This document shows, piece after piece, positions 17,428 through 61,794 of a stretch of DNA of 64,000 nt; the stretch's first letter is position 1, and each line of letters begins with the position of its first letter. The position numbers and the translations under genes were made by a program. The DNA is taken from assembly GCF_000686885.1 (NCBI RefSeq), contig NZ_JMLU01000001.1:248001-312000 (forward strand), in the 5' to 3' direction. The notes under the pieces are model-generated. The model did not search any database, was not told the DNA's origin, and saw nothing but the letters and a program-made list of their open reading frames with translations. The DNA comes from Flavobacterium sasangense DSM 21067 (lineage in GTDB: Bacteria > Bacteroidota > Bacteroidia > Flavobacteriales > Flavobacteriaceae).

Positions 17428-18066
17428 ATGAACTTCAATTGGGTTAAAACAAATAAATGGATTAAAAAGGTTTTCAATAATCTGGTTTGGGATATTCCAA
17501 ATTCGGATAATAAAATCTATTTAACGTTTGATGACGGCCCAATTCCAGAGGTAACTGAATGGGTTTTAAATATTTTAAAATCGAAAGACATAAAAGCTAC
17601 TTTCTTTTGTATAGGTGATAACATGAAAAAACATCCCGAAGTTTATAAAAGAATCCTTGCTGAAGGTCATCAAACAGGAAATCACACCTTTAATCATTTG
17701 AACGGCTGGAACACCGAAACTAATCATTATATAGAAAATTTCAAGTTGTGCGAAACTGAACATTCAAAACTGAACACTAAACACTCGTTTTTATTTCGTC
17801 CTCCTTATGGAAAAATCAAACCAAGTCAATCTAAAACAATTAGACAATTTGGTTACAAGATAATTATGTGGGATGTGTTAAGCTATGATTTTGACTCAAC
17901 CGTTTCAGAAGAAAAATGCTTAGAAAATGTAATTTCAAATACGGAACAAGGAAGTATTATCGTATTTCACGATAGCGTAAAAGCAGAAAAAAATCTGAAA
18001 TATGCACTGCCAAAAGCAATACAAGTTTTAAAAGATAAGGGGTTTGTTTTCGATGTAATTTCTTAG
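17428..18066 (+). CDS. Polysaccharide deacetylase family protein (NodB domain)
   Basis: 212-residue carbohydrate esterase 4 enzyme that removes acetyl groups from N-acetyl sugars such as peptidoglycan or a surface glycan. The CE4 motifs are intact: TFDDGP (about 32-37), metal-binding HTFNH, RPPYGK, WDVLSYDFD and the catalytic-His motif IVFHDS. No signal peptide is evident, so it may be cytoplasmic or released without a classical signal. The stop overlaps the stop of the convergent thioredoxin-fold gene by 4 bp. Confidence 0.88.
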   Translation: MNFNWVKTNKWIKKVFNNLVWDIPNSDNKIYLTFDDGPIPEVTEWVLNILKSKDIKATFFCIGDNMKKHPEVYKRILAEGHQTGNHTFNHLNGWNTETNHYIENFKLCETEHSKLNTKHSFLFRPPYGKIKPSQSKTIRQFGYKIIMWDVLSYDFDSTVSEEKCLENVISNTEQGSIIVFHDSVKAEKNLKYALPKAIQVLKDKGFVFDVIS

Positions 18067-30523: not shown

Positions 30524-30558
30524 GAAGCCTAAAGCCTAAAGCTTAAAGCTTAAAGCCC
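30524..30558. repeat. Degenerate 7-bp tandem array between rpsI and rpsB
   Basis: Five consecutive 7-bp units of the AAAGCYT type (for example AAAGCCT then AAAGCTT). It lies 40 bp before the rpsB start within the presumed leader. Confidence 0.8.
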
Positions 30559-31368: not shown

Positions 31369-31465
31369 AATTCCAAGAATTAAATTCCAAATTCCAAACT
31401 TGTTCTAACCATTCGTTAGCAATTTAGTAAAATTGGAATTTGGGATTTAGTAATTGGGATTTTTT
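31369..31465. repeat. Paired inverted 7-bp arrays between rpsB and tsf
   Basis: Left arm 31369-31396 has units AATTCCA, AGAATTA, AATTCCA, AATTCCA. The right arm 31431-31465 has AATTGGA, ATTTGGG, ATTTAGT, AATTGGG and a T-rich unit. The arms are imperfectly complementary with a 34-nt loop, so the RNA could fold into a long hairpin ending in a T-run between the two genes. Confidence 0.8.
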
Positions 31466-31498
31466 ACTTTTATAAACAACAAATAAAAAAAATACAAA

Positions 31499-32320
31499 AT
31501 GGCAAATATTACTGCTGCAGACGTAAATAAATTAAGAACTATCACTGGTGCTGGAATGATGGATTGCAAGAAAGCATTAGTGGAAGCAGAAGGAGATTTC
31601 GATTTAGCTATCGAAAACTTAAGAAAAAAAGGTCAAAAAGTAGCTGCTAACCGTTCAGATAGAGAATCTACTGAAGGAGCTGCTGTTGCTGTTATCAATG
31701 CTGATAATACTGCGGGAGTTGCAATCACTTTAAACTGTGAAACTGACTTCGTAGGTAAAAATGAAGCATTCGTAAAATTAGCAAACGATTTAGCTAACCA
31801 AGCATTAAACTTCGCTACTAAAGAAGAATTATTAGCTTCTGATTTCAACGGAATTACTGTTGCTGAGAAATTAATCGAGCAAACAGGAGTTATCGGAGAA
31901 AAAATCGAAATCGGTGCTTTTGAAAGATTAGAAGGTGCATTCGTAGGATCTTACATCCACGCTGGTAAAATTGCTACTTTAGTAGCTTTATCTGCTAACG
32001 TTGCTGGTGCTGACGAAGCTGCTAAAAACGTTGCAATGCAAGCTGCTGCTATGAACCCAATTGCTTTAAACGAAGCTGGTGTTGATGCTGCAATCATTGA
32101 AAAAGAAATCGAAATCGCTAAAGAGCAATTAAGAGCTGAAGGTAAACCAGAAGCAATGTTAGACAACATTTCTAAAGGAAAAATCCAACGTTTCTACAAA
32201 GACAATACTTTAGTAAACCAAGATTATATCAAAGACAGTTCTATGAGTGTTGCTGCTTACATTAAATCTGTAGACGCAAACTTAACTGTTACTGGATTTA
32301 GTAGAGTTGCTTTAGGATAA
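31499..32320 (+). CDS. tsf: Translation elongation factor Ts
   Basis: 273 residues; the nucleotide-exchange factor for EF-Tu. The N-terminal UBA-like module has LRTITGAGMMDCKKALVEAEGD, and the core has the conserved TDFVGKNEAFVKLANDLA (the TDF motif that contacts EF-Tu). Last gene of the ribosomal cluster, closed by a terminator. Confidence 0.97.
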   Translation: MANITAADVNKLRTITGAGMMDCKKALVEAEGDFDLAIENLRKKGQKVAANRSDRESTEGAAVAVINADNTAGVAITLNCETDFVGKNEAFVKLANDLANQALNFATKEELLASDFNGITVAEKLIEQTGVIGEKIEIGAFERLEGAFVGSYIHAGKIATLVALSANVAGADEAAKNVAMQAAAMNPIALNEAGVDAAIIEKEIEIAKEQLRAEGKPEAMLDNISKGKIQRFYKDNTLVNQDYIKDSSMSVAAYIKSVDANLTVTGFSRVALG

Positions 32321-38189: not shown

Positions 38190-38196
38190 CTTTTTA

Positions 38197-38286
38197 AATT
38201 TAGACTTCAGAAATTAGAATTTAGAAAAAGAAAAAGTCAGAAATTATAAAACTTCTGACTTCTAATCTCTAATTTCTAAATTTTAG
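38197..38286. repeat. Paired inverted 7-bp arrays between DUF3127 gene and aat
   Basis: Left arm 38197-38224: AATTTAG, ACTTCAG, AAATTAG, AATTTAG. Right arm 38252-38286: CTTCTGA, CTTCTAA, TCTCTAA, TTTCTAA and one more unit. The arms are largely complementary and would form a long hairpin that ends exactly at the stop codon of the DUF3127 gene; it may act as its terminator. Confidence 0.8.
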
Positions 38287-42345: not shown

Positions 42346-44532
42346 CTAAAATTTTAAATTCATTCCAAGAAGAAAATTAATCCCTGCTTGCGGATAATAA
42401 CCTGTTCCCTCTATTGTTACTGGAGTTGGTCCAGACCAAGTATCATCATATGTGTAGAAATACCCGTTTGATTCATATTCTACATTAAAGATATTATTTA
42501 CCAACGCTGAAAAAACAATCGATTTAATTCCTTTATTGATTTGCCAATCGTAAGAAGCATTAAAATCATTAATGAAATAACTATCCAATATAGAATTTTC
42601 TGAATCGATATTTCCCATATACTGTTCTCCAACAAATTTTGACAATAATGACAATTGTAATCCTTTAACTGGCAAGTAAGTAAACCTATTTCCAAAAATA
42701 AAATTAGGTGAATACGCAATATTTGTATTCCCTAAATTTAGAATTACACCATCTCTTTGAAAATAGAAATCTTTATTTTGATTCTGACTCAAAGTTATAT
42801 TTGGATTCAAAATTAATTTATTAGTAATTGCAATTGTAGATTCTATCTCCAAACCTAATCTGTAACTTTTTCCACTATTTGTAAAAATTGGCGAACCTAC
42901 ATCGTTTAGTGCTCCTGTCATAACCAATTGGTCATTATATCGCATGTAAAAAGCGTTTGCTGATAATTTTACTTTTTTAGAATTGTATTTCCATCCCAAT
43001 TCATAATCAAATAAACGCTCTGGTTTTACAGCGCCATTTTCGTAATCATCTCGTCGTGGTTCTTTGTTAGCAATTCCAAAATAACCATAAAAGGCGTTTT
43101 TTTCGTTTAATTGATAATTCAAACCTGCCTTTGGATTAAAGAAGCGAAACGTATCGTTTACATCGTCGAACTTTGTACTAGTAGCATCGTAAAACACCAT
43201 TCTGTATTGCAAATCAGCAAATAAATTCAACTTGTTTGTAACATTGTATGATGCTTTTGTATAAAAATTTACATCGTCTTTATTACCATAATTATCATAA
43301 TAGCGATTTGGATTTGGAATGTAATTTTGTGTCCAAACTACTTCACCATAATGCAATCCTAAATAACGATTTGCAGCTCCTCCAAATAATAAATCGGTTT
43401 TAGCTGTTTTATAATTTAACGAGAATGTGGCTCCAAAGAAATCATTATCTAACCAACGTTTTCTTACCAAATCAGAAATTGGATTACCATTAAAAGCTGG
43501 TAAATTATAGTCGGTTAAATCTGCATCTTCTTTGTATTGTTCAAAATAGCCTTTCCCAATGGTATAATGTAATGCCGCATTTGAAATCCAGTTCTCTGTC
43601 CATTTTTCTGTCCAATGCAATTGAAAATGATTTTGCCAATAATTATCGGTTTCATTATTATAGAATTTCATGTTGCCGAATTCATCGAAATACATTCCGG
43701 CAGGATTGAAGGTTCTACTTCCATTTAAATCTTCCGTTCCGTACCAAGCTTGATAGGTTTTTTCTTTTCCACCAAAAGCTAAAAACTTAATCAAAGTAGA
43801 TTCCTTCACATAATTAGCATTAAAAAAATAACCAAACATATTAGAAGTAGCTCTATCGATAAATCCATCCGAAGCTATATTGGAAATTCGACCATTCATT
43901 TCGAAATTATTATGCAAACCTGTACCAAAAGAAAGCGTGTGTTTTCTCGTATTGAAACTTCCGAAAGAATTTGAAATTTCGGCATACGCTTTTTCTTGAT
44001 AGGATTTGGTTGCCATGTTTAAACTCGCGCCAAAAGCTCCGGCTCCATTAGTTGAAGTTCCTACTCCACGTTGCAACTGAACACTTTCTAAAGAGGAAGC
44101 AAAATCAGGTAAATTCACAAAAAATGTTCCTTGACTTTCACTATCATTAAAAGGAACCCCGTTTAAGGTAACATTAATACGAGAGCCATCAGAACCACGT
44201 ACTCTCATGTACGTATAACCTACTCCATTTCCAGCATCGGTTGTGCTAACCACAGAAGGCAAATATTGCAATAAAACGGGTACATCTTGACCTAAATTTC
44301 GTGGCGCAATTTCTTCTTTGGAAACATTTGTAAATGTAATTGGGTTTTTGTCTTTTGCTCTAACAGACGAAACGGTTACTTCTTTTAATTCGGTAACTTT
44401 TGTGGTATCTTTCTTAGTTTCTTGCGAAAAAGAAATAAAAGGCAAAAGGTAAAAGGCAAAAGGTAAAAGGCAACTAAAATAGCGACTTTTTGTTTTTGGC
44501 ATTAAGCCATTTTTTTTGAATAAAGTTTTCAT
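42346..44532 (-). CDS. TonB-dependent outer-membrane receptor, TPP-riboswitch controlled (probable thiamin receptor)
   Basis: 728 residues. A signal peptide (hydrophobic core about residues 20-33, cut before QETKKD) leads to a TonB-box region, then a plug domain (IAPRNLGQDVPVLLQYLPSVV, MRVRGSDGSRINVTLNGVPFND) and a 22-strand-type barrel ending in aromatic LLGMNLKF. The TPP riboswitch 96 bp upstream on the same strand makes thiamin or a precursor the likely ligand, as for other thiamin receptors of the phylum. The signal-peptide core is encoded by a 7-bp repeat array. Confidence 0.92.
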   Translation of the reverse strand: MKTLFKKNGLMPKTKSRYFSCLLPFAFYLLPFISFSQETKKDTTKVTELKEVTVSSVRAKDKNPITFTNVSKEEIAPRNLGQDVPVLLQYLPSVVSTTDAGNGVGYTYMRVRGSDGSRINVTLNGVPFNDSESQGTFFVNLPDFASSLESVQLQRGVGTSTNGAGAFGASLNMATKSYQEKAYAEISNSFGSFNTRKHTLSFGTGLHNNFEMNGRISNIASDGFIDRATSNMFGYFFNANYVKESTLIKFLAFGGKEKTYQAWYGTEDLNGSRTFNPAGMYFDEFGNMKFYNNETDNYWQNHFQLHWTEKWTENWISNAALHYTIGKGYFEQYKEDADLTDYNLPAFNGNPISDLVRKRWLDNDFFGATFSLNYKTAKTDLLFGGAANRYLGLHYGEVVWTQNYIPNPNRYYDNYGNKDDVNFYTKASYNVTNKLNLFADLQYRMVFYDATSTKFDDVNDTFRFFNPKAGLNYQLNEKNAFYGYFGIANKEPRRDDYENGAVKPERLFDYELGWKYNSKKVKLSANAFYMRYNDQLVMTGALNDVGSPIFTNSGKSYRLGLEIESTIAITNKLILNPNITLSQNQNKDFYFQRDGVILNLGNTNIAYSPNFIFGNRFTYLPVKGLQLSLLSKFVGEQYMGNIDSENSILDSYFINDFNASYDWQINKGIKSIVFSALVNNIFNVEYESNGYFYTYDDTWSGPTPVTIEGTGYYPQAGINFLLGMNLKF
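44437..44474. repeat. 7-bp tandem array inside the receptor signal-peptide sequence
   Basis: About five units alternating AAAAGGC and AAAAGGT, that is 2.6 copies of a 14-bp unit. Read on the minus strand they encode LLPFAFYLLPF, the hydrophobic core of the signal peptide. Confidence 0.9.
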
Positions 44533-56332: not shown

Positions 56333-57103
56333 TTACTTTTCAATTTTATACAAAATAGGTTTTGATGGTGAAGCATCATTTTCAAACGAAGCGAATTGTA
56401 AATTCAATAAATAACTCCCGTCTTTTATTTCTTCATTAACGTAAATCATTTCCGTAATCGTACAATTGAATCGAGCATCTTGATTGACTTGATTCACATC
56501 TTTTACATTCCAAAACGCTTTATGTGCTAATAATTTTCCTTCGTCGTGTTCTTTGTCGACACTTGGCAAATCGACAAGCAAATGTTGAATTCCTTTTTCT
56601 TTAATAAAAATCGCAGCAGCTTCTTCCAAATAAGGAGGATTTGTATTGGAATAATTCAGATGCTTTTTGCTTTCTGAATTTGGCAATGTTCTGATGATGA
56701 TTGCTTCTGGCGAATTTCCTCCCAATGCTGATTCAATTTGCTCTTTTGTAATAACTAAATCTTCTCCAACAGCTTTTGGTTCCACTGAAATCAATTCTGC
56801 AGTAAAGAAAAACTGTTTCAAACATTGATTTATTGAATAAAAATGGCGGGTAATATGTCCCAAACATTCCGTATGCGTACCATGTGCGTGCGGATTGAAA
56901 AAAATATTATTGAAATTAGTAGATGATTTTTCTTCCGAAACTTTTCCTATCCAATCGCCCATTTTTACGGGTTCGATTTCAGGGGCATTTTGATACCAAG
57001 CAATTGGATTTTGATCGTCATTGGTTAGTGGAATCGAAATATCAATCGGTTTTGATAAGTCGATTTGAAATGTAGAATTATTGTGAGTGATTGTTGTTTT
57101 CAA
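56333..57103 (-). CDS. Cyclase-family protein (kynurenine-formamidase-like)
   Basis: 256 residues. The family metal-binding signature appears as NPHAHGTHTECLGHI (H-x-G-T-H-x3-G-H) at about residues 70-84, with later DLPSVDKEHDEGKLLAHKAFW. The start is TTG at 57103; no upstream ATG is available and the next ATG would cut into the fold. Such enzymes hydrolyse amides including N-formylkynurenine; the substrate here is unproven. Confidence 0.85.
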   Translation of the reverse strand: MKTTITHNNSTFQIDLSKPIDISIPLTNDDQNPIAWYQNAPEIEPVKMGDWIGKVSEEKSSTNFNNIFFNPHAHGTHTECLGHITRHFYSINQCLKQFFFTAELISVEPKAVGEDLVITKEQIESALGGNSPEAIIIRTLPNSESKKHLNYSNTNPPYLEEAAAIFIKEKGIQHLLVDLPSVDKEHDEGKLLAHKAFWNVKDVNQVNQDARFNCTITEMIYVNEEIKDGSYLLNLQFASFENDASPSKPILYKIEK

Positions 57104-57155
57104 AGCAATTATTGATTAAATTTACAATGATATTCAGATTTTAAAGATAGACAAA

Positions 57156-57535
57156 ATGAAGAAATTTTTCATAATTTTATCGCTTTTATCTACGTTTTGT
57201 TTGTTCTCTCAAACCAAAACTGATACGATTCAACCGATTTTACAACCAATTAAAATCGATGTTAATTTGAATTCGAACAAACATTTTTTCACATTCAATC
57301 AACTAAATTTCTACACAAAAAATGATTTTTCTATTTACAATAGAACCACGATGATGAATGATAATTATTCGATTTATAATGGCCAATTTGAATACAAGAA
57401 TTCCATTTAATTCCACAAAACATGTTGTTTAATTCTAAAATTGATTCGTTCAATCCCAGCGGAACAGATGAATTTGGAAGTACCCTTTTCATGGGTGTTT
57501 TAAATTTAGCCGAACAATTATTTCAATCGAAATAA
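57156..57535 (+). pseudogene. Small secreted protein gene, apparently frameshifted
   Basis: The first frame (57156-57410) gives 84 residues: a signal peptide (MKKFFIILSLLSTFCLFSQ) and a Thr/Asn-rich mature part ending NGQFEYKNSI. A second frame, open from about 57392 to the stop at 57533-57535, gives NMLFNSKIDSFNPSGTDEFG and then STLFMGVLNLAEQLFQSK, which reads like protein and ends 2 bp before the convergent hemW stop. A one-base shift near 57392-57410 would join them into about 122 residues. It could be a real mutation, a sequencing error or coincidence. Family not recognised. Confidence 0.55.
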
Positions 57536-57537
57536 AA

Positions 57538-58668
57538 TTATAAATTCAACAGAAATAAATCACTGGCAATTCCATCGCTTAAAAACTTTCCTTTTTTAGT
57601 AGTTCGTAAAATGTTTTCATCTACAAACAACAAATGGTCTTCTATGAATTTTGCTGCTTGACGGTTCAAATAATCTAAATAGGTTTTACCAAATTCTTGC
57701 TCGACTCTTTCTAATGAAACACCCCAAATTGTGCGCAACCCCGTCATGATATATTCGTTGTAACAATCGGTTTTGGTTAAGGTTTCAATTTCTATTGGTA
57801 ATTTATTTTCTTGAATGGATTTGATATAAAGTGAATTATTCGAAACATTCCAACCTCTATTTTTTCCATCATAACTGTGAGCAGACGGACCAATTCCGAT
57901 GTATTTTTTACCTAACCAATAACTAGAATTGTTTTTGGAGAAATAGTTTTCCTTTCCAAAGTTCGATAATTCATAATGAATGAATCCGTTTTCCGAAAGT
58001 TTGTCAACCAAAATATGAAAATGTTCTTGCGCCACTTCATCATCAGGTTGTGGAATAATTCCTTTTTGAATAAACGAATGCAAAGCTGTTTTAGGTTCGA
58101 CTGTTAAAGCATAACTCGAAATATGCGGCACACCAAAAGACAAAGCCGTTTCGATGTTTTGCAACCATTTTTCATTACTCATTTCGGGAACACCATAAAT
58201 CAAATCAATAGAAATATTATCAAAATATTGAATAGCTGTTTCCAAACATTTTTTAGCTTCTTCAGCATTGTGCGCACGATTCATCATCTTCAAATCGTCT
58301 TCAAAAAACGATTGAATTCCGATTGATAATCGGTTGACTTTATTTTTTGAAAGTTCAATTATTCGATTCTCTGTTAAATCATCTGGATTGGCTTCTACCG
58401 TAATTTCTGGATTTTCGACTACTTTATAGTTTCGATACACTTCATCAATTAAAAATCTCAAATCTGCAATCTGCAATATCGAAGGCGTTCCACCACCAAA
58501 ATAAATCGTTTCTACAATCTCATCCTTAAACTCGTTTTTACGTAATTCAATTTCTTTAGCCAATGCCAAAACCATCTCCTCTTTCTTCTTCAAATTAGTA
58601 GAAAAATGAAAATCGCAATAGTGACAAGCCTGTTTGCAGAATGGTATGTGGATGTAAATTCCGCTCAT
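57538..58668 (-). CDS. hemW: Radical SAM heme chaperone HemW
   Basis: 376 residues. The radical-SAM cluster motif is CKQACHYCDF (C-x3-C-x2-C followed by Phe, the HemW form rather than the C-x-C of coproporphyrinogen oxidase HemN). YFGGGTPS and the HemN C-terminal domain follow. HemW inserts heme into respiratory proteins. Its ATG sits 5 bp from the inverted-repeat arm that brackets the four-helix-bundle gene. Confidence 0.93.
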   Translation of the reverse strand: MSGIYIHIPFCKQACHYCDFHFSTNLKKKEEMVLALAKEIELRKNEFKDEIVETIYFGGGTPSILQIADLRFLIDEVYRNYKVVENPEITVEANPDDLTENRIIELSKNKVNRLSIGIQSFFEDDLKMMNRAHNAEEAKKCLETAIQYFDNISIDLIYGVPEMSNEKWLQNIETALSFGVPHISSYALTVEPKTALHSFIQKGIIPQPDDEVAQEHFHILVDKLSENGFIHYELSNFGKENYFSKNNSSYWLGKKYIGIGPSAHSYDGKNRGWNVSNNSLYIKSIQENKLPIEIETLTKTDCYNEYIMTGLRTIWGVSLERVEQEFGKTYLDYLNRQAAKFIEDHLLFVDENILRTTKKGKFLSDGIASDLFLLNL

Positions 58669-58673
58669 ATTTA

Positions 58674-58705
58674 AGTGCTCAGTGTTCAGTTTTTAGTGTT
58701 CAGTA
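58674..58705. repeat. Left arm of a perfect 32-bp inverted repeat (7-bp array)
   Basis: Units AGTGCTC, AGTGTTC, AGTTTTT, AGTGTTC and AGTA. Exactly complementary over 32 bp to 59119-59150. It lies 16 bp beyond the stop of the four-helix-bundle gene. Confidence 0.95.
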
Positions 58706-58721
58706 CTAGTTACAGTTTTAT

Positions 58722-59096
58722 TTAGTTTTCAGATTTTGAACCGAATTTTCCCGGGTTTAAAATCATGTAATTTATTAATCTTCCGACTTCTTTTGATTTT
58801 TCAGTCAAATAGTCAAATGTCTCTTGAGTAATATATTTACAAGCTAAAGCATATTCTAACCAACCTTGCGTTTCGGAATTTTCTGCATCTGCATCAGTTA
58901 ATTTGCTGTGAAAATATTTTGGATATTCCCTTTTACGGTAAGCTTCAGCTATTGTGATTGTTACACTTCTTGAACTTCTTCTAATTTGATCTGTTAAAGA
59001 ATAAGTTTCTTCTTTTGGAAAACTTTTTGATATTTCAAAAACTTCCATTGCAACATCAAATCCTTTTTTATAAGCTAATAAATCTTGAAATCTCAT
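58722..59096 (-). CDS. Four-helix-bundle protein (S23 / rRNA-intervening-sequence family)
   Basis: 124 residues of the IVS/S23 four-helix family: MRFQDLLAYKKGFDVAMEVFEISKSFPKEE, YSLTDQIRRSSRSVTITIAEAYRK and a C-terminal GRLINYMILN. Relatives are encoded within intervening sequences of 23S rRNA genes, and similar bundles (Avd) work with diversity-generating retroelements. Here it sits alone between ruvC and hemW, bracketed 16 and 22 bp away by a perfect 32-bp inverted repeat, so the whole 477-bp unit looks like a cassette. No reverse transcriptase or rRNA gene is nearby. Confidence 0.92.
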   Translation of the reverse strand: MRFQDLLAYKKGFDVAMEVFEISKSFPKEETYSLTDQIRRSSRSVTITIAEAYRKREYPKYFHSKLTDADAENSETQGWLEYALACKYITQETFDYLTEKSKEVGRLINYMILNPGKFGSKSEN

Positions 59097-59118
59097 ATTG
59101 TTTATTTACACGATATTA

Positions 59119-59150
59119 TACTGAACACTAAAAACTGAACACTGAGCACT
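59119..59150. repeat. Right arm of the perfect 32-bp inverted repeat
   Basis: Exact reverse complement of 58674-58705. Its outer end overlaps the first two bases of the ruvC stop codon read on the minus strand (59149-59151), so the cassette abuts ruvC directly. Confidence 0.95.
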
Positions 59151-59703
59151 ATTTTTTAACTCTCGATTCATTCTGTTTTACAAAAGCATCCCAACCCGAA
59201 TAACTTTTTCCCACTTCCACTCTTCCTGAATTGAAAAAATGACAAACTGCTGCAGCCAAACCATCTGTTGAGTCGAGGTTTTTTGGTAATTCTTTTAAAC
59301 CTAATAATTGTTGAAGCATTTTAGCAACTTGTTCTTTGCTGGCGTTTCCATTTCCGGTGATGGCCATTTTAATTTTTTTGGGTTCGTATTCTGTAATAGG
59401 AATATCTCTCGAAAGTCCGGCTGCCATGGCAACTCCTTGTGCTCTTCCTAATTTTAACATCGATTGTACGTTTTTACCAAAGAAAGGCGCTTCAATAGCA
59501 ATTTCATCTGGATTGTGTGTGTCGATTAACTCAATGGTTCGCTCAAAAATGACTCTTAATTTCTGATAATGGTTGTCGTATTTGGATAAAATGAGTTCGT
59601 TCAACTGTAGAAATTCCATTTTCTTGTTGACTACTTTGATTAATCCAAAACCCATAATCGTAGTTCCTGGGTCAATTCCTAATATGATGCGTTCGTTTGC
59701 CAA
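59149..59703 (-). CDS. ruvC: Holliday junction resolvase RuvC
   Basis: 184 residues. Catalytic acidic residues are in ILGIDPGTT, AIEAPFFGKN and DSTDGLAAAVCHFF. The start is TTG at 59703 (codons for MANERIILGID), as no ATG is available before the catalytic Asp. It cuts Holliday junctions with RuvAB. It is followed on the same strand by the four-helix-bundle cassette and hemW. Confidence 0.95.
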   Translation of the reverse strand: MANERIILGIDPGTTIMGFGLIKVVNKKMEFLQLNELILSKYDNHYQKLRVIFERTIELIDTHNPDEIAIEAPFFGKNVQSMLKLGRAQGVAMAAGLSRDIPITEYEPKKIKMAITGNGNASKEQVAKMLQQLLGLKELPKNLDSTDGLAAAVCHFFNSGRVEVGKSYSGWDAFVKQNESRVKK

Positions 59704-59710
59704 TTATTTA

Positions 59711-59745
59711 GTTTCAAGTTTAAGGTTTCAAGTTGAAAGTTTTGT
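59711..59745. repeat. Degenerate 7-bp tandem array between ruvC and the flippase-like gene
   Basis: Five units starting GTT: GTTTCAA, GTTTAAG, GTTTCAA, GTTGAAA, GTTTTGT. Exactly 35 bp, filling most of the divergent intergenic gap. Confidence 0.85.
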
Positions 59746-59756
59746 TTCTTTGCAAC

Positions 59757-60683
59757 ATGATTTCAATTCCTCACAAAGCTAAGCAATTCCTTGTTTTTAC
59801 CATCAAACTTTTGATTGTAATTGGTGCGTTTTATTTTATTTATGACCAAATTGCTAGTAATTCAAAGTTAGAATGGAGTAAGTTCCAGACTTTAGTTTTG
59901 GAAAAAACTTCAATTACAACTATCATTTTCATTTTATTATTTAGTGTTGCGAATCGCTATTTTGAGATTTTAAAATGGCAAAATTTAGTTGATTTCATCA
60001 AACCGATTTCGGTTGGCGAAGCAAGTAAACAAGTTTTGGGAGCTTTAACTGCTGGAATTTTCACACCAAATGGTTTGGGAGAATATGCCGGAAAAGCCAT
60101 GTTTTTCAAGAAAGAACAAACTAAAAAAGTGGTATTTTTAAACTTGATTTGCAACGGAATTCAAATGATTTTGACAATCATTTTCGGAGCTATTGGATTG
60201 ATTTTAATTGGGTATTGGAAATGGGCGTTAGCGATAATTGGAATGGCAATCGTGTTATTTTTCGCTTCAATTCTTTCGAAAAATATCACTATTAAAGGTT
60301 ATTCCATTCAGAAATTGCTCCACAAAATCAACGAAATTCCGAAGAAGATTCATCGAAAAAATATTTTATTGGGCATTTGTCGTTACTTGGTTTTTTCGCA
60401 TCAATATTATATTTTGTTTTTGGTTTTTGATGTGGATTTACCTTATCTGACTTTGATTAGCTCGATTGCTGCGGTTTACTTTTTAGCTTCTTCGTTGCCG
60501 AGTTTTCAATTTTTAGATTTTGCTGTAAAAGGAAGTGTGGCGATGTTTTTCTTCGGAAAATATGGTGTTAACGAATGGATAGTAATTTTCATTAGTACGT
60601 TAATGTGGTTTTTAAACGTAGTTTTACCCGTGGTAATTGGAAGTTATTATGTGATGCGATTTAAGTTGAATACTTCAAAATAA
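59757..60683 (+). CDS. Lysylphosphatidylglycerol synthase/flippase-like membrane protein
   Basis: 308 residues from the ATG at 59757 (a TTG eight codons earlier lies inside the repeat array). About eight membrane segments. The family blocks are visible: FKPISVGEASKQVLGALTAGIFTPNGLGEYAGKAMFFKKEQ and ASSLPSFQFLDFAVKG. Such proteins (AglD/MprF transmembrane part) often flip or modify lipids. A glycosyltransferase gene follows 7 bp later, suggesting joint work on a glycolipid. Confidence 0.85.
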   Translation: MISIPHKAKQFLVFTIKLLIVIGAFYFIYDQIASNSKLEWSKFQTLVLEKTSITTIIFILLFSVANRYFEILKWQNLVDFIKPISVGEASKQVLGALTAGIFTPNGLGEYAGKAMFFKKEQTKKVVFLNLICNGIQMILTIIFGAIGLILIGYWKWALAIIGMAIVLFFASILSKNITIKGYSIQKLLHKINEIPKKIHRKNILLGICRYLVFSHQYYILFLVFDVDLPYLTLISSIAAVYFLASSLPSFQFLDFAVKGSVAMFFFGKYGVNEWIVIFISTLMWFLNVVLPVVIGSYYVMRFKLNTSK

Positions 60684-60690
60684 ATTCTTT

Positions 60691-61794
60691 ATGTTGGAAT
60701 TAATTCTCGGAATTGTTTTTCTAATTTACATCCTGTTCATCGGGCAACTGATTTATGGATGTAATCGCATGAAACGCTTTTCGAGAAAGGAATTCACTCC
60801 AAAAACATCTTTTACCATTGTAGTTCCGTTCCGAAATGAAAAAGAGAATCTCCCGAATTTATTACATTCTATTTCTTTGTTGCATTATCCGAAAGAATTA
60901 GTGGAAGTGATTTTAGTGGATGATGACTCTGAAGAAGTGTTCAGTGTTCAGGATTTAGTGTTCAGTTTGAAAGTAATTAAAAACGAACGGAAATCTAATT
61001 CACCAAAGAAAGATGCGATTGAAACAGCTATTCAAATAGCCAAAAACGATTGGATTATAACTACCGATGCAGATTGCTTGGTTCAGAAAGATTGGTTGAA
61101 AATTTATGACCAATATATTCAGGAAAATGAAGTGGAAATGGTGGCTTCTGGCGTTTGTTATGTTCCAAAAAGTGGCTTTTTATCCGCTTTCCAGAATTTA
61201 GATTTTCTAAGTTTACAAGGCGCTACAATTGGAAGTTTTGGAATGAATCAACCTTTTATGTGTAATGGTGCAAATTTTGCGTATTCCAAAGTATTTTTCA
61301 AGGAATTAAATGGATTCCAAGGAAATGAAATGATTGCCAGCGGAGACGATGTTTTTTTATTACAAAAAGCAGTATCATATGCTCCGAAGAAAGTTGGATT
61401 TTTGTTGGCTAAAGAAAGTATTGTCGCTACAAAACCAGTAGAGAATTGGTCTGAATTATTTCAGCAACGGGTTCGCTGGGCTTCGAAAAGTACGGGTTAT
61501 TCTTCGTTTTATGGTAAGTTGCTAGCTTTAGTAGTTTTTGGCGGGAATTTAGTCTGGATTTTAAGTTTTTTACTTTGGTTGACAAGTGTATTAGACCAAA
61601 ACATTTTCATGCTTTTTGTCGCTTTAAAATTCCTAATCGATTTTATCTTAATATACAAAACAGCAAACTTCTTTGAATCGAAATTGCAATATGTGTTAGC
61701 GAGTAGTTTGCTGTATCCGTTTTTTAGTGTTTCGGTGGCGGTGTATTCTTTGTTTGGGAAATATAATTGGAAAGGGAGAAAATTTAGTAAATAA
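60691..61794 (+). CDS. Family 2 glycosyltransferase, membrane-bound
   Basis: 367 residues: N-terminal membrane segment, GT-A domain with FTIVVPFRNEKENLPNLL, VDDDS, TTDADC (metal-binding DxD-type) and QQRVRWASKSTGY (the Q-x2-R-W product motif of processive GT2), then two to three C-terminal membrane segments. Residues about 82-94 (EEVFSVQDLVFSL), right after VDDDS, are encoded by a 7-bp repeat array. Co-transcribed with the flippase-like gene. Confidence 0.9.
   Translation: MLELILGIVFLIYILFIGQLIYGCNRMKRFSRKEFTPKTSFTIVVPFRNEKENLPNLLHSISLLHYPKELVEVILVDDDSEEVFSVQDLVFSLKVIKNERKSNSPKKDAIETAIQIAKNDWIITTDADCLVQKDWLKIYDQYIQENEVEMVASGVCYVPKSGFLSAFQNLDFLSLQGATIGSFGMNQPFMCNGANFAYSKVFFKELNGFQGNEMIASGDDVFLLQKAVSYAPKKVGFLLAKESIVATKPVENWSELFQQRVRWASKSTGYSSFYGKLLALVVFGGNLVWILSFLLWLTSVLDQNIFMLFVALKFLIDFILIYKTANFFESKLQYVLASSLLYPFFSVSVAVYSLFGKYNWKGRKFSK
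60936..60970. repeat. 7-bp array inside the glycosyltransferase gene
   Basis: Units AGTGTTC, AGTGTTC, AGGATTT, AGTGTTC, AGTTTGA. It matches the inverted-repeat arm at 58674-58705 in 28 of 32 positions and is in frame. Confidence 0.9.

Follow-up and report, generated by a model that had tools for sequence, protein, structure and literature searches.

Five-core periodic arrays beside S23 four-helix-bundle genes: a candidate minimal selfish module in bacteria and an archaeon

The S23 unit between ruvC and hemW

The window (the whole stretch of Flavobacterium sasangense DNA that was analyzed, 64,000 nucleotides) carries a 477-bp unit between ruvC and hemW. The unit consists of a gene for an S23/IVP four-helix-bundle protein and two flanking arms (Table 1), which form a perfect inverted repeat of 32 bp with 413 nt between them. 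This repeat had been pointed out in a first-pass annotation of the sequence and was confirmed by exact reverse-complement comparison; the match between the arms is far beyond chance. The spare of 16 and 22 bp given there around the gene was also found, the upstream array lying 22 nt 5′ of the S23 start. The unit had been placed exactly between the ruvC stop and the hemW start, but its borders are less clean: the TAG stop of ruvC (59149-59151, minus strand) shares 2 nt with the outer arm and is partly built from the outermost core, and the ATG of hemW (58668) is separated from the downstream arm by 5 bp.

Table 1. Coordinates of the ruvC-hemW unit, its neighbors and further units of the same family in the window
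Feature	Coordinates	Strand	Basis
S23/IVP four-helix-bundle gene, 124 aa	58722..59096	(-)	PF05635 2.6e-29, AlphaFold2 model, Foldseek, dN/dS
Upstream arm (5′ of the S23 gene on its own strand), five AGT cores	59119..59150	(-)	sequence
Downstream arm, inverted copy of the five-core array	58674..58705	(+)	sequence
ruvC, upstream neighbor	59149..59703	(-)	PF02075 2.6e-41
hemW, downstream neighbor	57538..58668	(-)	PF04055 + PF06969
Five-core unit of the same family inside ORF 60691-61794	60936..60966	(+)	sequence
Same-family unit L024, apparently coding	17755..17785	(+)	similar sequence in G012, G032

Each arm is internally periodic. On the strand leading into the S23 gene, it reads AGTGCTC AGTGTTC AGTTTTT AGTGTTC AGT plus one base, with five AGT cores at 7-nt spacing and 4-nt spacers, 31 nt in total. 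Other arrays were observed in the window. A five-core array with another word (AGTTTCA AGTTTAA GGTTTCA AGTTGAA AGTT) is located just 5′ of the ruvC start (59710-59741), and further period-7 arrays, whose words include AAGCCTA and AAAAGGC, are at 30525-30556, 31430-31507, 38192-38285 and 44437-44473. Eleven strong lag-7 segments were counted in the window, whereas lags 6 and 8-11 gave no more than 2.

The S23 gene matched the PF05635 profile at 102 bits (curated cut-off 33.8) and also bAvd (PF22296, 3e-10). These were its only profile matches; no transposase family and no HUH TnpA-like protein was hit. The profile search covered the S23 gene and its neighbors ruvC and hemW. The AlphaFold2 model (pLDDT 94.4) has helices at 7-23, 34-54, 59-85 and 91-113. 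Its nearest folds in Foldseek were 2rld and 2gsc (TMq 0.75-0.86), followed by Avd (4dwl, E 0.01), which bears out a likeness to Avd that the annotation had claimed. Both 2rld and 2gsc, S23 structures released in 2006 and 2007, contain five chains. The protein in 2gsc is from Xanthomonas campestris, and the Xanthomonas S23 protein is called a homopentamer (PMC4990558; this and the other papers cited are represented here by excerpts). By likeness to these solved relatives, the protein of the window is probably ring-forming, as a pentamer.

Against nine homologs, the dN/dS of the S23 gene was 0.03-0.16, a tenth homolog being saturated; thus, selection acts on the S23 protein. When the genome of the window (G000) was compared with G032, the arms differed at only 2 of 62 sites, whereas the synonymous sites of the S23 gene differed at 0.317 and the 23-nt spacer beside the S23 start codon matched at only 14 of 23 positions. 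The sequence comparison indicates that both the S23 protein and the arms are under purifying selection.

The RNA of the unit is predicted to fold with a continuous terminal stem (MFE -123.5, z -7.3), in agreement with the earlier suggestion that the gene would lie in the loop of a 32-bp stem. An Rfam search of 57000-61000 gave no match to a known RNA family. With such a fold, the unit might be an rRNA-type intervening sequence (IVS) outside rRNA, in which RNase III would cut the stem and S23 would be either a passenger or an RNA chaperone. The strong predicted stem would suit this explanation, as would the position of the S23 ORF inside it and the size of the unit, which is near that of the Coxiella IVS (428-444 nt with a 28-bp stem; PMC4990558). 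To this extent, the likeness to rRNA intervening sequences drawn in the annotation stands. However, the unit is located between ruvC and hemW and not in any rRNA gene. Moreover, most of the arms compared (at 84 and 77 loci, see below) pair imperfectly while the spacing of the cores is kept, and it is periodicity, not pairing, that looks conserved. We therefore consider the IVS explanation improbable.

Close S23 homologs were found in 109 of the 299 genomes of the genus that were searched. Among the 29 best-scoring homologs from other genomes, 23 adjoin ruvC or hemW, with identities down to 71%. Since these homologs share the junction, the copy in the window is old. A transposon-like cassette recently mobile at this junction would account for the perfect terminal repeats, and for the close relative G023 (HemW 98.6% identical), which has no S23 gene there. 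Against it stand the 23 shared positions, the failure to see any duplication and the lack of a match to a transposase family. Recent insertion at ruvC-hemW was therefore rejected, and we regard it as very improbable. As judged from these homologs, the unit is an old resident, and a clean recent insertion at this place is not supported. Thus, one part of the mobile cassette that the annotation had proposed holds, namely that gene and repeats are one unit, since the array word follows the protein (see below), whereas a recent insertion is not supported.

We read 30 ruvC loci, the window's own included, among 60 RuvC matches. A short hairpin without a gene was present in 13 of them and a gap without a scored hairpin in 3 (a class that includes gaps with periodic arrays pairing poorly), while 4 were bare, 2 carried another insert and 2 had no adjacent hemW. 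The remaining 6 hold an S23 gene, so that presence of the gene here in all relatives, which the annotation had named as speaking against a cassette, is partly the case. The hairpin word at ruvC-hemW varies between species. Target-site duplications, which the annotation had proposed to look for, were not visible by eye at this junction, where the bare examples (L049, L054, L067 and L068) are very short.

Periodic arrays beside S23 genes in other genomes

The genome of the window has six PF05635 genes. By eye, each of them is flanked on both sides by repeats, with a word that differs from gene to gene, and the best periods at these loci (L006 to L011) are 7, 8, 7, 7, 8 and 6. The surroundings of L006 have what we take to be the gene order of a published four helix bundle gene mentioned in the last section. 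L011 is a divergent PF05635 gene (33.6 bits) with a best flank period of 6 and a TTGAAC word, and L282 of G023 is at the same place.

In the phylum to which this genome belongs, PF05635 was detected in 66 of 90 genomes. From 127 ORFs at 124 loci, we took 84 representatives below 70% identity. Their flanks gave a lag-7 peak of 0.387 and 0.366, other lags giving 0.26-0.32 except for multiples of 7; the lag-7 values were 0.280 inside the gene and 0.253 in DNA 500-600 bp away. Named genomes yielded 587 loci, of which the best 80 were used; the peak was seen in 61 Bacteroidota-type and 16 other loci, 3 being left out for short flanks. Phyla were sorted by record title here; Gracilimonas was kept with Bacteroidota, and Limnohabitans, possibly mislabelled, with the others. 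Arrays were read in records titled SAR324, Saccharibacteria, Acidobacteria, Ignavibacteria, Clostridia, a betaproteobacterium and a Methanophagales archaeon, the majority of them metagenome bins. At other loci that were read, for example those of Nitrospirales and Nomurabacteria and one of those of Anaerolineaceae, no array with period 7 was seen.

A phylum that includes a cyanobacterium has PF05635 in 86 of 194 genomes. Thirty S23 genes of this phylum were read, with a lag-7 peak of 0.369 and 0.394; about a dozen lack an array of period 7, several of these having period 8 instead. Many of the period-8 S23 genes in this sample (L429-L457) come from genomes near 2 Mb.

A total of 217 S23 genes were scored for flanking periodicity, consisting of 164 representatives below 70% identity and 53 further genes that are only non-identical, near-copies (such as L436 and L437) included. 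A periodic array was detected alongside 201 genes, and the same period on both sides in 130 (60%). The best period was 7 in 151 genes, 8 in 42, 6 in 5 and 9 in 3, with none in 16. By comparison, Markov-shuffled flanks gave 43 genes with any array and none with both sides, and DNA 500-700 bp away gave 36 and 3 of the 151 loci with a flank long enough. The 217 S23 genes come from several phyla and one archaeon. The 16 genes without an array and the 87 without matching arrays on both sides were counted against the interpretation that we propose below.

Gaps beside S23 genes were periodic (lag-7 identity of at least 0.6) in 48 of 86 cases, as against 5 of 26 other gaps at the same loci. An inverted match between arms above the 99th percentile of cross-paired arms was found at 31 of 84 and 19 of 77 loci. 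This strict alignment finds few loci because the spacers differ between the arms, and the periodicity test is the better one. On the S23 tree, periods 7 and 8 required 18 changes (shuffled mean 38; 0 of 500 shuffles as low), few branches being well supported. In these sequences, the period follows the S23 tree.

The number of cores was estimated from array length. Period-7 arrays have a modal length of 30 nt (34 arrays); 67 of 263 are 30-32 nt long, compared with 18 at 27-29 nt and 25 at 33-35 nt. The 53 S23 genes that had played no part in finding this length peak show it again (14 of 49 arrays vs. 3 and 4). For period 8, 21 of 70 arrays are 33-36 nt long. Among the arrays read, five cores is the commonest count at both periods. 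For the window's word in its own genome, 21 of 27 arrays have exactly five cores and none has more, although the search pattern asked for about four; these 27 arrays come from 30 of 55 matches and are thus not all in that genome. At other loci of the genus, the spread is broader: of 144, 50 have five cores, 41 three and 25 four. Many arrays have more or fewer than five cores, which was counted against our interpretation, and some are long. The strand leading into the S23 gene is C-poor (0-22% per position in 30-31-nt arrays), and thus fits a single-stranded site. A deviant third heptad was considered as a general feature, since it occurred in 23 of 38 arrays at first, and was set aside when it did not clearly recur in new data (3 of 8).

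To relate word and protein, pairs of S23 genes in different contexts were compared (260 of 286 ORFs). An arm score of at least 20 was reached by 89% of the pairs at 70% protein identity or more, 29% at 60-70%, 10% at 50-60% and 2-3% below, the three lowest bins being samples of 1500 pairs. The top bins are dominated by the subfamily of the window; without it, the figures are 2 of 4 at 70% or more, 29% of 49 and 6% of 728. Within the genus, and again in different contexts, 47% of 1817 same-subfamily pairs match, whereas only 2.0% of 2784 cross-subfamily pairs do. Thus, the word is not simply the genome's own. In the genomes compared, the array word follows the S23 subfamily, and the independent variation of repeats and gene considered in the annotation was not found. 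The subfamily of the window itself occurs in nine or ten gene contexts, depending on grouping. This count is based on 70 loci (the best-scoring 30, own included, and 40 more), which were grouped by homology of the flanking ORFs; one of the groups, with 54 loci, combines ruvC-hemW and at least one further place.

Many bacteria have an excess of heptamers (PMC4692102), and the arrays might be neutral tandem repeats that arose by slippage and stand beside S23 genes by chance. The occurrence of some long arrays would agree with this. However, slippage does not account for the inverted orientation, the subfamily-specific word, the preference for five cores or the conservation of arms at high synonymous divergence, and the control gaps were much less often periodic than those beside S23. 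The explanation is already contradicted by the link between word and protein and by the shuffled and far-flank controls, and we give it hardly any credence. The pairing of arrays with most of the S23 genes examined, in many kinds of bacteria and an archaeon, suggests that the protein reads these repeats.

Scattered units and a second junction

A four-core pattern, searched with up to 2 mismatches, gave 25 forward and 30 reverse matches in the genome of the window, including overlapping matches within arrays and both arms; the reversed pattern gave 2 and 3. Across the genus, the median number of matches was 16 in the 109 genomes with a close S23 homolog and 3 in the 190 without (p 5e-14); the arms of the element itself and overlapping matches within long arrays are part of these counts, which ignore the kinship between genomes. 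The window's unit was present in 130 of the 190 genomes without a close homolog, and absent from 60 of these and from 8 of the 109, which was counted against the interpretation proposed below.

Two further units in the window are listed in Table 1. The ORF that contains the first is presumably glycosyltransferase-like. At the same codons of this ORF, G000 and G023 have an ACTGAAC word, G032 a CTTCCAT word and G012 a TTCTAAA word. G032 holds an S23 gene (L280) with a TGGAAGA/CTTCCAA word in its arms; an S23 gene with the TTCTAAA word was not seen in G012 among the S23 loci read. At the L019 and L020 sites, the unit is present in some relatives and absent in others. At L014 (G000:C1:359970), the unit stands where G012 and G009 have an unlike sequence of the same length, which looks like overwriting. 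Thus, not all units are simple insertions. No target-site duplication was seen by eye at the sites of scattered units. Several units (L022, L023, L029, L030 and L031) are, by eye, near the tip of longer imperfect inverted repeats; some of them cluster at G000:C4:14.2-15.0 kb, and all five resemble hairpins of another repeat family.

A second junction, which we take to be between a fabG-like gene and a membrane-protein gene, holds one S23 subfamily in G032 and another in G142, each with its own word. At this place, about 15 bp separate the two genes in G000 and G023, and G012 and G014 have a hairpin without a gene. Of the 33 matches to this junction, 30 were classified (G142 is not one of the 30): a long insert is present in 1 (G032), a hairpin in 13 and no scored hairpin in 12, a class that again includes gaps with periodic arrays pairing poorly; 3 are bare, and 1 could not be parsed. 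Inspection by eye gave no target-site duplication that could be assigned. The short gap in G000 (TGGTTAAACTATAA) may be a collapsed element, and therefore gain and loss cannot be told apart at this junction. The different elements here, together with presence and absence in close relatives, suggest the traces expected of a mobile unit. More generally, the nine or ten contexts of the window's subfamily, the two subfamilies at the second junction and the close relatives without the gene there suggest, indirectly, that the S23 family is mobile.

A proposed five-core reader and its relation to known systems

We propose that the unit of the window would be one member of a widespread two-part system, made of an S23 gene and its own five-core arrays. 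Each protomer of the S23 pentamer would bind one core, all on a single strand of the array, much as TRAP, also a ring, binds its spaced triplets, and each S23 protein would recognize its own word. The recognized object would be the DNA of the element, or its RNA plus a copy; a DNA element, and not only mRNA, is the proposed target because both ends offer the same site on opposite strands. S23 would then recruit host or trans-acting enzymes, which would spread the short ends by copying or recombination, and at times the complete unit, with stop-start junctions and tolerant loops as targets of insertion. Lone ends would be by-products of this selfish module, and the ruvC-hemW copy would be an old resident. 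To our knowledge, S23 has no known catalytic residues or active site, and the enzyme must therefore come from elsewhere, which counts against the model. We infer binding and movement from sequence, and we assign an even chance of being correct to the proposal as a whole, namely a ring-shaped S23 pentamer that reads five-core arrays, and a minimal selfish module made of gene and arrays.

Several of the same observations would be expected if S23 were a ring-shaped RNA-binding regulator that is not itself mobile. The five AGU cores just 5′ of the S23 start codon would then be an autoregulatory site, and the scattered units would be a regulon or terminator-like sites spread by ordinary recombination. 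The short distance between array and S23 start, the C-poor strand and the purifying selection on protein and arms are consistent with a regulator, and in one genome heptamers are found just 5′ of start codons (MacGregor 2015, PMC4679880). On the other hand, the inverted site after the gene would be superfluous for a regulator of mRNA, at least one unit is inside a listed ORF and others look coding, and hairpins of such words occur in many intergenic gaps without an S23 gene. We regard this explanation as unlikely, although deserving of serious attention.

The selfish-module reading can be extended further. The S23 proteins of bacteria and archaea would be pentameric rings, each reading a cognate five-core array of 7- or 8-nt period, and gene plus inverted arrays would be a new minimal class of selfish element. 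The ends that it sheds would be a main source of the unexplained heptamer repeats of prokaryotes, and the rRNA IVS would be a special case that landed in rRNA. This wider claim we put forward tentatively, with rather more doubt than belief.

Taken singly, S23 genes, IVS elements and heptamer repeats were known before, and what appears to be new is the pairing of S23 genes with arrays. No report linking S23 to periodic arrays was found in the open-access literature, as far as its excerpts go, and an unseen report is possible. The pairing offers a partner protein for heptamer repeats and a candidate binding site for S23 proteins, and the agreement of five cores with a five-chain protein allows a direct test of binding. 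If the module does move, there would be a mobile unit that measures about 480 bp and encodes a single protein, one for which no catalytic site is known.

Cyanobacterial STRR are heptamer repeats. Others are TAACTGA in Beggiatoaceae (PMC4679880), and GGGAATC in Xanthomonas and GGGGA(C/T)T in Nostoc (PMC4692102). For TAACTGA, horizontal spread was considered possible and its mechanism not evident (PMC4679880, 2015). Like the S23 arrays, these repeats are 7-nt tandem and mostly intergenic, and TAACTGA belongs to the same word class as that of the window (ACTGANN). In the excerpts, the published heptamers are described without an S23 partner (that of PMC4679880 has no match for S23, and that of PMC4692102 none for S23 or XCC0516), whereas the arrays studied here are tied to S23 genes, have a preferred number of cores and occur in inverted pairs. 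S23 proteins have been described as without known function (PMC4990558). Their genes have been noted in cas loci and in CPR rRNA insertions (PMC3936711, PMC11270868), their likeness to Avd has been mentioned (PMC10053308), and an S23 domain appears in a figure legend (PMC10910872). The gene order referred to above for L006 is that of a gene listed as four helix bundle, with guanylate kinase on one side and a nicotinate-nucleotide adenylyltransferase on the other (PMC5524665). For the Coxiella IVS, with its S23 ORF in a 28-bp terminal stem, older proposals of mobility have been cited (PMC4990558).

The rRNA IVS of Leptospira and Coxiella resemble the unit of the window in size, and in having a terminal inverted repeat whose loop contains a PF05635-type gene. 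They differ in lying in an rRNA gene, and the arms of the window's unit are five-core periodic arrays. In REP/RAYT systems, a protein gene is flanked by inverted repeats and many repeats are present elsewhere, a layout like that of the S23 unit. However, RAYT is a catalytic HUH enzyme, whereas S23 is a four-helix bundle and its repeats are periodic arrays. Avd of the diversity-generating retroelements has the same fold as the S23 protein of the window. TRAP is a ring protein that reads evenly spaced RNA triplets, one per subunit, with eleven subunits and 2-3-nt spacers. The geometry proposed for S23, whose binding is putative, is analogous in an unrelated fold, with five subunits and 4-nt spacers.
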